A DNA stretch of 64,000 bases. It comes from Pseudomonas izuensis (GTDB lineage: Bacteria > Pseudomonadota > Gammaproteobacteria > Pseudomonadales > Pseudomonadaceae). Each line of letters begins with the position of its first letter. Position 1 is the first letter of the stretch. The DNA lies in contig NZ_WTFT01000026.1 in the NCBI RefSeq assembly GCF_009861505.1, forward strand, positions 62,001 to 126,000, read 5' to 3'. The notes under the pieces are model-generated. The model made no database searches. It was not told the DNA's origin and worked only from the letters and a program-made list of their open reading frames with translations. The position numbers and the translations under genes were made by a program. Shown piece after piece: positions 7,458 through 41,250 of the stretch.

Positions 7458-7523
7458 ATCGCGAGCAGGCTCGCTCCTACAGTTGGAATGCATTTGCCTG
7501 TAGGAGTGAGCCTGCTCGCGATG
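7458..7523. repeat. REPIN, short spacer
   Basis: CATCGCGAGCAGGCTCGCTC and GAGTGAGCCTGCTCGCGATG face outward with only about 20 bases between them. Confidence 0.9.
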
Positions 7524-8835: not shown

Positions 8836-8936
8836 TGTAGGAGCGAGCCTGCTCGCGATGGTCTTGAATGATTACGCGGGTAACCAGATGCCCAGCGGTG
8901 ACGTTGAGTTTTTCGCGAGCAGGCTCGCTCCTACAG
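8836..8936. repeat. REPIN, GCGAGCC subtype
   Basis: TGTAGGAGCGAGCCTGCTCG at the left and CGAGCAGGCTCGCTCCTACA at the right, about 55 bases apart. Confidence 0.9.
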
Positions 8937-20076: not shown

Positions 20077-20166
20077 TGTAGGAGCGAGCCTGCTCGCGAT
20101 GACGGTGGGTCAGGCAACATCAGTGTTGAATGACAGTCCGCTATCGCGAGCAGGCTCGCTCCTACA
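20077..20166. repeat. REPIN, GCGAGCC subtype
   Basis: TGTAGGAGCGAGCCTGCTCG and CGAGCAGGCTCGCTCCTACA lie between two convergent transporter genes. Confidence 0.9.
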
Positions 20167-35736: not shown

Positions 35737-36861
35737 TTACTTGCGGGCCTTGAGAATGACGAACTTCGGCGTAGCTGCCACTTGCTCGACACCGCGGAAC
35801 AAACGCGCCAGTTTGCTGTGGTAACCCAGGTGACGATTGCCGACGATGTACAACGCACCCCCCACCACCAGGGCCTCCCGGGCTTGCTGGAACATCCGCC
35901 AGGCGAGGAAGTCGCCAACAACCTGTTGCTGGTGGAACGGTGGATTGCACAGTACTACGTCCAGCGATTGAGGATCCTGCCCGGCCAGGCCATCACCGGC
36001 ACGCACGATGACATCGCGGTCACCCAGTGCCGCGCGCCAGTTTTCGGCGGCCGACTGCACCGCCATGAACGATTCGTCCACCAGCGTGTAATGGGCGTCG
36101 GGGTTTTGCAGGGCGCTGGCGATGGCCAGCACGCCATTACCGCATCCGAGGTCGGCAACCCGTACCGCGCCAAGGTTTTTCGGCAAGTGCGGCAAAAATG
36201 CCCGCGTGCCGATATCCAGGCCTTCGCGGCAGAAGACGTTGGCGTGGTTAAGCAGTTCGATGGACGGGGTGTCGAGACGATATCGGGTCGGGTAGGGCGA
36301 CGAGGCCGGTGCCTTGGCTTCAACCGTGGCAATCAGCAACCGGGCTTTCTTCACCGCCAGTGACGCCTGCACCGGTCCGATGTAGCGCTCCAGCAGATCA
36401 CCCGCGGCCCGTGGCAAATGTTTGATCATCGCTCCCGCAATCACTTGAGCGCCGGGAGCCAATTGGCCTTGCAGGCGGATTAGTTGCTCTTCCAGTAACG
36501 CCAGAGTCTTTGGCACCCGTACCAGCACCTGGTCAAACGGCCCCGTCGGTATTTCGCTGGCGGGTATGGCCGGCACCGCATCAAACGCCTGGCCATTGCG
36601 GGCCAGGTTCTTTTCCAGGCCTTGAAAGGCCAGGAACGAGTCGCCACTACTGGTCACCCTGACCTTGCCGGCCAGACTGGCGGCCAATGCGCCGAAACTG
36701 TCGTTCAGCACCAGGACCCGCGTGTCGACCGAGGGCTTCTGCTCGGCCAGGTGATTGAGCAGGTACTCGTCTGCCGCATCAAAAGCTTGCAGCGGTTCGT
36801 TCTGCTGTTCGGGCTGGCGGATCAGGTCAAGGCTGGCGAAAGGTGTTTCGAGCAAAGGCAT
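35737..36861 (-). CDS. rlmG: 23S rRNA (guanine-1835 N2)-methyltransferase
   Basis: 374 residues. The N-terminal half is a degenerate methyltransferase-like domain; the C-terminal half (from about 190) has the AdoMet site VADLGCGNGVLAIASAL and catalytic DVVLCNPPFHQQ. Layout and length fit RlmG, which methylates G1835 in 23S rRNA on naked rRNA. It converges on the cio operon terminator. Confidence 0.92.
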   Translation of the reverse strand: MPLLETPFASLDLIRQPEQQNEPLQAFDAADEYLLNHLAEQKPSVDTRVLVLNDSFGALAASLAGKVRVTSSGDSFLAFQGLEKNLARNGQAFDAVPAIPASEIPTGPFDQVLVRVPKTLALLEEQLIRLQGQLAPGAQVIAGAMIKHLPRAAGDLLERYIGPVQASLAVKKARLLIATVEAKAPASSPYPTRYRLDTPSIELLNHANVFCREGLDIGTRAFLPHLPKNLGAVRVADLGCGNGVLAIASALQNPDAHYTLVDESFMAVQSAAENWRAALGDRDVIVRAGDGLAGQDPQSLDVVLCNPPFHQQQVVGDFLAWRMFQQAREALVVGGALYIVGNRHLGYHSKLARLFRGVEQVAATPKFVILKARK

Positions 36862-37026: not shown

Positions 37027-37761
37027 TCAGCGCATCGTGTTGCTATTGAGATAACCAGCCTTCACGGCGGCGATAACGGCAGAAACCTTGTTATTGACCC
37101 CGAATTTGCGGATGGCTTCCTGTACATGGAAATTGATTGTGCGGGCGCTGAGATTGAGAATCCGGGCGCTTTCATAAGCGGTCTTGCCGGCTGCCGCCAG
37201 TTTCAGTACGTCGATTTCCCGTGGCGATAATTGCGGTGTAGACGATTTGGCCGGTTCCTTGGGCAGGGTTTGCACGACCAGCTTATGCAAGTGACGGCCA
37301 ATGAACACGGAGAAACCCAGGTTTTCATAGAGCTCCCACGGACTGATCGGGCAATGGCTTCTGGCCAGGCTCAGAATACTGCAGAAGCCGCTATCGTCGT
37401 CGTGAACGGCTTGTGACCAGCCATGCTGTATTCCTTGCTGCTCAAGTGTCGCCCAAATCCATGGCACCTCGCAGAAAAGTTCTTCACTCCAAAGAATGGG
37501 TAGCATAGATTGATTGCAATGAGCCACTACTGGGTCGAAGGATCCGTACTTCCTTTTTTCATATTCGGTGTTCCAGTATTGTGGGTAATTATTGAACCGC
37601 ACCGTATGGAAGTGCTCAGTTTTTGTTGGGCAAGTCGTTGAAAAGGCGAAAAATTTAAATCCGATATTTTTCACGAAATTCAATGATATTCGGTAAGCGC
37701 TCTCCAGTTCGGTAGTAGAAGATATTTGTTTAAGTTGAGACTCCTTCCATTTTTCCATCAT
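37027..37761 (-). CDS. LuxR-type quorum-sensing regulator (solo)
   Basis: 244 residues. The N-terminal autoinducer-binding domain keeps all the usual acyl-homoserine-lactone contacts: Trp63, Tyr67, Asp76, Pro77 and Trp91 in the spacing of TraR (W57, Y61, D70, P71, W85). The C-terminal LuxR helix-turn-helix is LSPREIDVLKLAAAGKTAYESARILNLSARTINFHV-like, with the invariant Glu, Leu and Gly. No luxI-type synthase is in the window, so it is a solo here. Codon use is AT-rich compared with its neighbours (AAA, TTT, ATA), suggesting acquisition. Confidence 0.9.
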   Translation of the reverse strand: MMEKWKESQLKQISSTTELESAYRISLNFVKNIGFKFFAFSTTCPTKTEHFHTVRFNNYPQYWNTEYEKRKYGSFDPVVAHCNQSMLPILWSEELFCEVPWIWATLEQQGIQHGWSQAVHDDDSGFCSILSLARSHCPISPWELYENLGFSVFIGRHLHKLVVQTLPKEPAKSSTPQLSPREIDVLKLAAAGKTAYESARILNLSARTINFHVQEAIRKFGVNNKVSAVIAAVKAGYLNSNTMR

Positions 37762-38082
37762 GAGGCTCCACAGTCGTGATAGCTTGAGGGCGCGGATTGG
37801 ATCCAGATGATCAGCGAGAAAGGGAGTGTAGGATGTTTCCGATACGTATGTTGAGAATTTTTTAATTCATTAATGTCTTTCATGAAATTTTATGGTTCTA
37901 ACCGTGATTCATCGCTAGGCAGTTAATTTGAATGACAGTGTTAATCTTATTTTGAACTGAGCAGTTAATGCTTATATCAAGGTAATGAGAATCGGAGTAT
38001 TTGCCAAAGACACTACAAAGCGTCGGTGTTTATCGGGCTCGCTTTGCGAGACACTGCGGTTATCTGTTGAATGGAGCCCACC
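37762..38082. promoter_or_regulatory. AT-rich divergent promoter region, luxR solo and fprB
   Basis: 321 bases, strongly AT-rich between 37830 and 37995. It carries a short direct repeat GCAGTTAAT (near 37919 and 37962). I see no lux-box-like palindrome and no gene. Confidence 0.5.
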
Positions 38083-38859
38083 ATGACTGCCAGCGAAGAG
38101 AAATTTACTCGCCAGAGTTTGCTCGACGTCCAGCCATTGACCCCGAACCTGTTCACCCTGCGCGCCACCAGGGATTCGGGCTTTCGTTTTCGTGCAGGGC
38201 AATTTGCCCGGTTGGGCGTGACAAAAGCCGATGGCAGTACCGTATGGCGTGCTTATTCCATGGTGTCGTCGCCCTTTGACGAGTTTCTCGAGTTCTTTTC
38301 CATTGTCGTGCCGGGAGGCGAGTTCACCAGTGAACTGAGTCGGCTAGGCGTCGGCGATACACTGCTGGTTGACCGCCAGGCCTTCGGTTACCTGACGCTC
38401 GATCGTTTTGCCGAGGGGCGTGATCTGTGGTTGTTATCCTCCGGTACTGGCCTGGCGCCGTTTCTGTCGATTCTCCAGGACTTCGAGGTGTGGGAGAAGT
38501 TTGAGCGGATCATCCTGGTCTACAGCGTGCGCGAATCTCGGGAGTTGGCCTATCAGAAGCTCATAGCGGAGCTCGGGCAGCGTGAATACCTGGCGGAATT
38601 CGCGCACAAGTTGCAGCTCATCAACACGGTGACTCGTGAGCAACATCCTGGTGCGCTGAATGGCCGGATCACCACGCTGATCGAAAATGGTGAGCTGGAG
38701 CGGGCTGCCGGGGTGGCGATGACACCCGAGCACTCGCGGGTTATGTTGTGCGGCAACCCGCAGATGATCGATGACACGCGCAAATTGCTCAAACAGCGTG
38801 ACATGCACTTGAGCCTGAGCCGGCGACCCGGTCAGGTGGCGGTGGAAAACTTCTGGTAA
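38083..38859 (+). CDS. fprB: Ferredoxin--NADP(+) reductase
   Basis: 258 residues from the ATG at 38083 with GGAG upstream. The FAD motif is RAYSMVSSPFDEFLEFFSIVV (RxYS), NADP binding is LLSSGTGLAPFLSIL and VMLCGNPQMIDDT, and the terminal VENFW matches bacterial subclass I reductases. It shuttles electrons between NADPH and ferredoxin or flavodoxin in stress and iron metabolism. I use fprB because it neighbours mscL, as in P. aeruginosa (PA4615 beside PA4614). Confidence 0.88.
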   Translation: MTASEEKFTRQSLLDVQPLTPNLFTLRATRDSGFRFRAGQFARLGVTKADGSTVWRAYSMVSSPFDEFLEFFSIVVPGGEFTSELSRLGVGDTLLVDRQAFGYLTLDRFAEGRDLWLLSSGTGLAPFLSILQDFEVWEKFERIILVYSVRESRELAYQKLIAELGQREYLAEFAHKLQLINTVTREQHPGALNGRITTLIENGELERAAGVAMTPEHSRVMLCGNPQMIDDTRKLLKQRDMHLSLSRRPGQVAVENFW

Positions 38860-38901: not shown

Positions 38902-39315
38902 TCAAGGTCGATTGTTCTGGGCTTTGAGCAGGTCACGGATCTCACCCAGCAGCTCTTCTTCCTTGGTCGGTACTGGCGGCAGGGTAGGGGCGACAGCCTC
39001 TTCGCGCTTCAGGCGGTTGATGGCCTTGACGCCCATGAAGATTGCAAAGGCCACGATGATGAAGTCGATCATGCTCTGAATGAACTTGCCGTACGCCAGC
39101 ACCACCGCCGGGGCGTTTCCGCTGGCGGCCTTGAGCGTAATGGCCAGGTCACTGAAGTCCACCCCGCCGATCAGCAGCCCGATGGGAGGCATGACCACAT
39201 CACCCACAAACGATGTAACGATCTTGCCGAAGGCCGCGCCGATGATGATGCCGACGGCCATGTCGACCACATTGCCTTTGACCGCGAAGGCCTTGAACTC
39301 ATTTAGCACGCCCAT
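38902..39315 (-). CDS. mscL: Large-conductance mechanosensitive channel
   Basis: 137 residues. [46 protein letters not shown] holds the N-terminal helix and first membrane helix with the pore-lining Gly pattern. The second helix is [18 protein letters not shown] and the C-terminal bundle [14 protein letters not shown]. It opens under membrane tension to release solutes during osmotic downshock. Confidence 0.95.
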
Positions 39316-39882
39316 AGGTTATTTCCTTGTTACGGATGAGGTTGGTGAGGGCAGTGTAAATCAGCCAATCACATCTTGCTCGATTCACCTGCCTGCAACG
39401 ATGCCTGCCATCGACCCGTACATTGGGAAAATTTACAAAATGCCATCACTGCAGGACGATCGCGATAGGCACTCGCATAATAATTTCACGATCATGTTTA
39501 TTTTTTTAGTTTGGACTATTTGATTTTTAAATAAGGAGGTTGGAGTGAATGGATAAACAAAAATATAAATCAAGTTTCACTTGAAGTTCCCGTGGAGTTC
39601 AAGTCTGAGCGAGAGCGGGCCGGTGGGTTTAAGTATGAGTAGTGTTTGGGATTCATTTTTATATTCAGTTGTACGTGAAAGCAGTAATTGTCGCAGGCTT
39701 GTACAAGTTATTTGGGTCGGAGTTGAGGGGGCAGCCCGTACAGTGGTACAGGTTTTCGAAACTTTCCACTTATGAACTAAATTAAGACATCCAAACAAGA
39801 TAATACCGACGACTCGTCTGCAACACTGTCGCGCCGACCCGTCTCACCTGAGCTATCATCGCGGTTTTTGCCGGGAGTTCAG
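39316..39882. other. AT-rich intergenic island with candidate small frames
   Basis: 567 bases between mscL and radA without a supported gene. From about 39480 to 39800 the sequence is far richer in A and T than its surroundings. A very strong ribosome site (AAGGAGG, 39533-39539) precedes an ATG at 39549 that reads only 11 codons. A second frame of 46 codons begins at 39635 with GGTGGG upstream and ends at 39775 (MSSVWDSFLYSVVRESS...). Neither resembles a known family; I do not call them genes. Confidence 0.3.
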
Positions 39883-41250
39883 ATGGCCAAGGCCAAGCGC
39901 ATGTACGGCTGCACCGAGTGCGGCTCAACCTTCCCGAAGTGGGCCGGTCAATGCGGCGAATGCGGCGCCTGGAACACGCTGACCGAAACCATGGTGGAAA
40001 GCGGCGGGGCAGCGGCACCCAGCGGGCGCACCGGTTGGGCCGGCCAACAGGCGCAGATCAAGACCCTGGCCGAAGTCAGCGTCGAAGAGATACCGCGCTT
40101 TTCCACCGTATCCAGCGAGCTGGATCGGGTATTGGGCGGGGGGCTCGTCGACGGTTCCGTGGTGCTGATCGGCGGTGACCCCGGCATCGGCAAATCGACC
40201 ATTTTGTTGCAGACCTTGTGCAACCTGGCCAAGAGCATGCCGGCCCTCTACGTCACCGGTGAAGAATCCCAGCAACAGGTGGCCATGCGCGCCCGACGCC
40301 TGGGCTTGCCTCAGGACCAGCTGCGGGTCATGACCGAAACCTGCATCGAAACCATCATCGCCACGGCCCGACAGGAAAAACCCAAGGTCATGGTGATAGA
40401 TTCGATCCAGACGATTTTCACCGAGCAGTTGCAATCGGCACCGGGCGGCGTTTCCCAGGTGCGCGAAAGCGCGGCCTTGTTGGTGCGCTATGCCAAGCAG
40501 AGTGGCACGGCGATCTTCCTTGTCGGCCACGTGACCAAGGAAGGTGCATTGGCCGGGCCGCGAGTGCTGGAGCACATGGTCGATACCGTGCTGTATTTCG
40601 AGGGCGAATCCGACGGGCGTTTGCGTTTATTGCGGGCCGTGAAAAACCGTTTCGGCGCGGTCAACGAATTGGGTGTGTTCGGCATGACTGACAAGGGCCT
40701 GAAAGAAGTCTCCAACCCATCGGCGATTTTTCTGACCCGTGCGCAGGAAGAAGTCCCCGGCAGTGTGGTCATGGCGACATGGGAGGGCACACGGCCGATG
40801 CTGGTGGAAGTCCAGGCATTGGTGGATGACAGCCATTTGGCCAACCCGCGTCGGGTGACGCTGGGGCTGGATCAGAATCGTCTGGCGATGTTGCTGGCGG
40901 TGCTGCATCGTCACGGCGGTATTCCCACCCACGATCAGGACGTGTTCCTCAACGTGGTCGGCGGCGTAAAGGTGCTGGAAACGGCGTCGGACCTGGCATT
41001 GATGGCGGCGGTGATGTCCAGCTTGCGCAACCGGCCGCTGCCCCATGACTTGCTGGTGTTTGGTGAAGTGGGGTTGTCCGGCGAAGTGCGCCCGGTGCCA
41101 AGCGGCCAGGAGCGCCTGAAGGAAGCGGCCAAGCACGGTTTCAAGCGTGCCATCGTGCCTAAGGGCAATGCGCCGAAGGAAGCCCCGCCCGGGTTGCAGA
41201 TCATTGCGGTCACCCGGCTGGAGCAGGCGCTCGACGCGTTGTTCGAATAA
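39883..41250 (+). CDS. radA: DNA repair protein RadA
   Basis: 455 residues from the ATG at 39883. A zinc finger (Cys10, Cys13, Cys24, Cys27) is followed by Walker A GGDPGIGKST, the RadA-specific KNRFG motif, and a C-terminal Lon-like domain (DLALMAAVMSSLRNRPLPHDLLVFGEVGLSGEVRPV). RadA is a RecA-like branch-migration ATPase acting in recombination repair. It stands alone, ahead of a REPIN. Confidence 0.95.
   Translation: MAKAKRMYGCTECGSTFPKWAGQCGECGAWNTLTETMVESGGAAAPSGRTGWAGQQAQIKTLAEVSVEEIPRFSTVSSELDRVLGGGLVDGSVVLIGGDPGIGKSTILLQTLCNLAKSMPALYVTGEESQQQVAMRARRLGLPQDQLRVMTETCIETIIATARQEKPKVMVIDSIQTIFTEQLQSAPGGVSQVRESAALLVRYAKQSGTAIFLVGHVTKEGALAGPRVLEHMVDTVLYFEGESDGRLRLLRAVKNRFGAVNELGVFGMTDKGLKEVSNPSAIFLTRAQEEVPGSVVMATWEGTRPMLVEVQALVDDSHLANPRRVTLGLDQNRLAMLLAVLHRHGGIPTHDQDVFLNVVGGVKVLETASDLALMAAVMSSLRNRPLPHDLLVFGEVGLSGEVRPVPSGQERLKEAAKHGFKRAIVPKGNAPKEAPPGLQIIAVTRLEQALDALFE

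Follow-up and report, generated by a model that had tools for sequence, protein, structure and literature searches.

Does the LuxR-type protein encoded beside fpr in this stretch of Pseudomonas izuensis DNA act as a receptor for acyl-homoserine lactones (AHLs) of neighbouring bacteria, as an initial annotation had proposed, or is its conserved function exerted without a ligand? The region concerned, positions 37027-38082 of the window (the whole 64-kb stretch that was analysed), comprises luxR, which has an ATG start and ends at 37761, and the intergenic region 37762-38082 up to the ATG of the divergent fpr gene at 38083 (Table 1). Pfam searches identified both domains over their cut-offs, the autoinducer-binding domain Autoind_bind (PF03472, aa 21-159, E 2e-22) and the GerE/LuxR helix-turn-helix (HTH; PF00196, E 2.7e-15). 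The gene order in the window is rlmG - luxR - fpr - mscL - radA, of which the last two, to the right of fpr, are presumed from their sequence to be mscL and radA.

Table 1. Features of the luxR locus in the window
Feature	Position	Strand	Basis
rlmG-like 23S rRNA methyltransferase, left neighbour	35737..36861	-	RlmG model 283 bits, under cut-off 468
luxR solo, ppoR orthologue, 244 aa	37027..37761	-	ORF, PF03472/PF00196, gene order and 89 syntenic relatives
GerE/LuxR-type HTH, aa 177-231	37069..37233	-	PF00196
Ligand-binding half, aa 1-165	37267..37761	-	PF03472 and AlphaFold2 model
Stretch with the five pocket residues W63, Y67, D76, W91 and G114	37420..37575	-	Alignment
Probable ribosome binding site of luxR, GGAG in luxR orientation	37764..37769	-	Sequence; conserved block in 20 aligned loci
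Conserved GGATCC element between luxR start and footprint	37799..37804	-	TTGGATCC in 46/90 loci
Promoter-like footprint TCCTACACT (luxR orientation), -10-like	37825..37833	-	TCCTACA in 88/90 intergenic regions
Imperfect 18-bp palindrome TGTAGGA-N4-TCCTACA overlapping footprint	37827..37844	.	2 mismatches in window
fpr, ferredoxin-NADP+ reductase, right neighbour	38083..38859	+	Best NCBIfam model ferredoxin--NADP(+) reductase, 218.5 bits, under cut-off 390

The order rlmG-luxR-fpr defines the PpoR group, 'subgroup A' in the available portion of Bez 2021, which had previously been predicted to bind AHLs. As this is the order published for PpoR, the window gene is almost certainly an orthologue of Pseudomonas putida PpoR. 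With the members of that group, including Ppu16R and PplR, it shares the gene order, both domains, the five AHL-contact residues, including the W57 and D70 equivalents, and the absence of a paired luxI; it is a divergent member of a group whose conservation is given as 31-52% or 40-79% in the published sections consulted. A whole-protein search, which returned 12 loci, identified relatives at 69-81%, for example in Pseudomonas azerbaijanoccidentalis, P. moorei and P. fluorescens C2, together with two distant matches outside Pseudomonas (25% and 35%). PpoR is an already described and surveyed group, to which the window gene adds one member; the initial annotation had not made this assignment.

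The protein had been credited with five hallmark ligand-pocket residues at the spacing of TraR, and the alignment upheld the first part of this claim and most of the second. W63, Y67, D76, W91 and G114 correspond to TraR W57, Y61, D70, W85 and G113; all five are there and four are spaced as in TraR, with steps of 4, 9, 15 and 23 against the 4, 9, 15 and 28 that follow from the TraR numbering in the available part of PMC8546723. The step to the pocket glycine is thus 5 shorter than in TraR and, from the alignment, the same as in QscR. The solved proteins most similar in sequence were QscR (E 7.1e-34), RhlR variants, LasR and SdiA. An AlphaFold2 model of the window protein, built from 25 sequences (mean pLDDT 82.2, pTM 0.61), resembled RhlR, QscR and SdiA in structure comparison, including SdiA with 3-oxo-C6-HSL, with whole-chain TM-scores of just ~0.6 and an rmsd of ~9-10 A, as though the domains were differently placed. 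QscR of P. aeruginosa and SdiA of E. coli, which rank high among the solved relatives both in sequence and in fold, are likewise AHL-binding solos, but their genes occupy other positions; QscR responds to the cell's own AHLs (PMC8546723, in part), and the SdiA equivalog model NF007561, with its cut-off of 350 bits, gives the window protein 86.

The window protein has matches at E <= 1e-20 in 210 of the 298 genomes of the genus. Ninety loci were compared: besides that of the window, 29 further top matches and 60 picked from the remaining matches listed, with weaker, unlisted ones left out. The luxR gene is short or broken at five of these loci (L042, L045, L081, L082 and L094), and likewise at a further intact locus (L177); L081 is the closest row to the window in the RlmG + Fpr tree. 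Among the 85 full-length copies, 78 have all five pocket residues intact. The changes in the other seven fall on W57 (L017), on Y61 (L019, L020, L036, L060 and L061) or on both W57 and D70 (L080), and in these seven the ligand preference may have drifted.

Binding of AHLs has been reported for orthologues. E. coli making PpoR retained 3-oxo-C6-HSL and, with data not shown, probably smaller amounts of 3-oxo-C8 and 3-oxo-C10 as well (PMC2703642, in the part available); PplR binds C6, C8, 3-oxo-C10 and 3-oxo-C12-HSL, and an AHL-containing extract reduced biofilm in the wild type, whereas the mutant used in the PplR work showed no such reduction (PMC11543582, in the sections at hand). Models of subgroup A retain the AHL contacts (PMC8546723, likewise in part). 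The view that the gene encodes a receptor for true AHLs, unlike the plant-signal solos, therefore stands as far as the intact W and Y and the published binding by orthologues are concerned, while AHL sensing by the window protein itself is presumed. Since orthologues bind AHLs and yet some of their effects are AHL-independent, eavesdropping on the AHLs of other bacteria is, by analogy, plausible for the window protein, and a ligand-independent role is also supported.

The reading that we prefer is that the window gene is a PpoR orthologue with AHL sensing as its main mode, to which as a joint claim we assign a probability of about 0.6. It draws on the pocket intact in 78/85 copies, on nearest solved structures that are AHL receptors and on a genome without the LuxI family. 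According to this reading, the PpoR orthologue is a transcription factor of the LuxR type that lacks a LuxI partner and is vertically inherited at a fixed rlmG-ppoR-fpr site; its fold is most likely that of QscR and SdiA, its intact pocket would bind AHLs from neighbouring bacteria, as the published relatives suggest, and its C-terminal HTH would act on genes that presumably lie mostly outside the rlmG-fpr locus.

Against AHL sensing as the main mode stand the seven altered pockets, the five broken genes among the 90 loci, a clade in which only the HTH is left, and several published observations. Ppu16R, a member of subgroup A, gave no promoter response and no AHL-dependent solubility in the portion of PMC8546723 available, and other effects of PplR and PpoR are described as AHL-independent in that of PMC11543582. 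It is thus possible, though we consider it somewhat unlikely, that the conserved job of the same protein is ligand-independent, with the HTH half regulating and the AHL pocket secondary or relaxed. Mean pairwise identity in the 85 full-length copies is higher in the HTH (0.611) than in the ligand half (0.454), as would be expected on that account; however, 78 of these copies retain the five pocket residues despite fast divergence, and the orthologues PpoR and PplR bind AHLs (PMC2703642 and PMC11543582, both in part).

Further evidence on a ligand-independent job comes from genomes of the genus in which the protein had no match at E <= 1e-20. Twenty of the 88 such genomes were inspected. In six of them, ~700 bp between rlmG and fpr contained an HTH-only ORF; in the other 14, no luxR remnant was detected by tblastn, and in one of these fpr was missing as well. 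A search with one HTH-only protein gave 30 loci, of which 25, mostly selected for a short open frame, were examined; the five outside this selection have open frames of 238-263 aa. All 25 are flanked by rlmG and fpr, and they comprise 21 HTH-only ORFs (77-112 aa), two partial forms (L166, 155 aa; L168, 131 aa) and two full-length genes (L170 and L173). With L175 as the 22nd HTH-only gene, the stripped forms at the rlmG-fpr locus are L145-L158, L160, L162-L165, L171, L172 and L175.

A profile of the ligand half found no trace of that domain in the 21 HTH-only loci, and detected it in full-length controls. The same profile detected residues 100-163 in L166 and was silent on L168, whose alignment to the full-length profile begins at position 133; these two sister genomes retain only the last 64 or ~31 residues of the AHL-binding domain. 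The four HTH-only proteins submitted to Pfam all matched GerE and no autoinducer-binding domain, and one of them also barely reached the cut-off of the sigma-70 region 4 model. In 20 of the 21 HTH-only ORFs the chosen start directly follows GGAG, the starts having been picked partly by that criterion, and the footprint is found in its strict pattern at 17 of the 21 loci, the other four showing by eye CTA[A/G]ACT at a like distance. The median dN/dS of the HTH core was 0.135 (47 pairs with dS 0.05-1.5, in which pairs share rows and many dS values are near 1).

In an RlmG + Fpr tree of 130 loci, the 22 HTH-only rows form one side of a branch (SH-aLRT 98), as do the 24 rows that include the two partial forms (SH-aLRT 96). 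An earlier tree of 128 rows agrees; L064, with a short RlmG piece, was omitted from the trees, which are quick searches without bootstraps. We suspect the clade to be the P. syringae group. Because full-length forms lie all around it, the direction of change would be loss of the sensor, and the simplest history suggested by these sequences is one stepwise sensor loss in which the DNA-binding half was retained. HTH-only forms of PpoR were not found reported in the literature searched, largely without subscription journals; both surveys on which the definition of the group rests took the ligand-binding domain as their entry point, and so could not have picked up such forms. Intact HTH-only orthologues with low dN/dS in a 22-genome clade favour a ligand-independent job; recognition-helix positions differ between clades, however, and the HTH-only proteins may not act on the same genes.

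No luxI partner had been noted in the window, and a search of the whole genome extended this result: the LuxI family (PF00765) had no match in the genome's 6.87-Mb draft (92 contigs, completeness 100, contamination 0.53), and hence no cognate luxI was found. The same search found the family in 60 of the 298 genomes of the genus, which served as a working control, and was also silent in 14 named control genomes. The gene is the sole PF03472 match of its genome, and with both domains present and no LuxI-family match, its designation as a LuxR solo holds. A search for a LuxM-type synthase gave no match, and its controls were equally silent. HdtS-like enzymes have been reported in Pseudomonas, and a working control existed for the LuxI family alone, both of which count for an own AHL from a non-LuxI synthase of the LuxM or HdtS type; the LuxM-type search, its controls being silent, carries little weight against it, and we regard such a supply as quite improbable.

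That the protein senses a plant compound or some other ligand that is not an AHL, as a solo of the PAB type such as OryR or PipR, is highly improbable. Solos of this type are common in pseudomonads (PMC8546723, in part), they share the two domains and the solo state with the window protein, and hallmark residues are changed in seven of the 85 relatives. In OryR and PipR, however, W57 and Y61 are changed and pip adjoins the gene, the PAB solos showing W57M and Y61W in the portion of PMC8546723 consulted, whereas the window protein has W and Y at these positions and its gene has fpr and rlmG, not pip, as neighbours.

The gene and its upstream region had been described as AT-rich, and the base-composition profile confirmed it. 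The GC content is 0.484 in luxR and 0.411 in 37762-38070, whereas 735-bp windows across the 64 kb have a median of 0.601 and the lowest of them coincide with the luxR region. The GC3 of luxR is 0.555 against 0.709-0.783 in four neighbours. A second AT-rich dip is seen at ~39051-39985, spanning mscL and the mscL-radA gap. The accompanying hint of an imported island did not hold. Both neighbours, rlmG and fpr, are in place at 90/90 loci, and the GC of luxR is below that of both neighbours at 90/90 (means: luxR 0.511, fpr 0.600, rlmG 0.632, intergenic 0.439). The mean p-distance of LuxR in the 85 full-length copies is 3.67 times that of Fpr (0.516 vs 0.141), and LuxR and Fpr distances are correlated (Mantel r 0.793, with none of 999 permutations as high). 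From the shared synteny, the shared low GC and this correlation it follows that the AT-richness is long-standing and belongs to the orthologue, a gene that evolves fast and is inherited vertically; luxR is an old resident. Recent acquisition as a foreign gene in an AT-rich island, to which the window's lowest GC and the deviating GC3 lend themselves, can practically be dismissed on the same three grounds, and no tRNA was found in the 64-kb window.

The region between luxR and fpr carries a conserved component, the footprint. TCCTACA occurs in 88 of the 90 intergenic regions, against a mean of 2.9 and a maximum of 8/90 in base shuffles, a contrast between related, non-independent species that is to be taken as conservation and not as a P value. 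It lies 50-90 nt from the luxR start in 86 of the 88, the other two being broken copies with the start elsewhere. The base next to it is C in 79 copies and A in 9, and the one after that is T in 87. From the sequence comparison, its position and tolerated changes look like those of a -10 element; a consensus scan of 37700-38100 found no sigma-70 promoter, and the footprint combined with AAGGAGG had no match in the window's own genome.

The overlapping 18-bp palindrome is less constant, its best match having at most one mismatch at 44/90 loci and at most two at 65/90. The partner arm (at least 5/7 bases) is present in 54 of the 63 nearer copies, where control offsets give 1.0%, and in 9 of the 23 farther ones, where they give 0%; it is mostly absent in the HTH-only clade (at least 5/7 bases in 1 of 17 scored). 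This absence would be compatible with binding of the full-length dimer there and is a point for autoregulation of luxR through the palindrome, which is nevertheless not favoured: the footprint stays constant across clades that differ at recognition-helix positions 210, 214 and 218, and the published ppoR promoter is independent of PpoR (PMC2703642, in part). With at most two mismatches, the palindrome occurs at 20 places in the own genome against 12 for a reversed control, and the 15 sites viewed, one of them the luxR site itself, revealed no coherent gene set, and no regulon is proposed; a tighter pattern with at most one mismatch was matched in 5 of 14 genomes (own and 13 relatives).

CTA[C/A/G]A[C/A]T, the invariant half, is similar to the sigma-S extended -10 consensus, and the palindrome to the GacA box, TGTAAG-N6-CTTACA. 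Neither identification was retained, as ppoR was unchanged in the published rpoS mutant and unaffected in the gacA mutant (PMC2703642, in part), and the scan for a sigma-70 promoter was negative as well. Expression of ppoR climbs sharply at the entry into log phase, independently of rpoS, psrA, gacA and ppoR, and its overexpression altered 62 genes with one biological sample per strain (available sections of PMC2703642).

Two further elements were observed. A strongly conserved block before fpr, at 38006-38056, reads ACTACAAA...GGTGTTTA...TTTGCG.GACACT and may be the FinR/promoter region described for fpr. Inverted pairs of the form TGTAGGAG[TC]GAGCCTGCT / AGCAGGCTCGCTCCTACA are located at 7464-7516, 8836-8935 and 20077-20166 of the window, and resemble Pseudomonas REP elements.

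The interesting part of this locus is the HTH-only PpoR clade together with the promoter footprint, and the stripped forms are new here. We tentatively suggest, at somewhat less than even odds, that nature has run a sensor-removal experiment at the ppoR locus, in which one clade lost the AHL domain stepwise and kept the bare HTH, with low dN/dS, and a promoter footprint; if the bare HTH acts on PpoR targets, the conserved job would need no ligand, and AHL binding would only tune it. Comparison with relatives is accordingly more useful than the window gene itself, which is one more PpoR in a surveyed group. The footprint may offer a way to the 'yet unidentified regulator' behind the growth-phase control of ppoR (PMC2703642, in part). 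Published work leaves room for PpoR acting via AHL or without it, and with the HTH-only orthologues one could cleanly determine in which of the two halves the conserved function resides.
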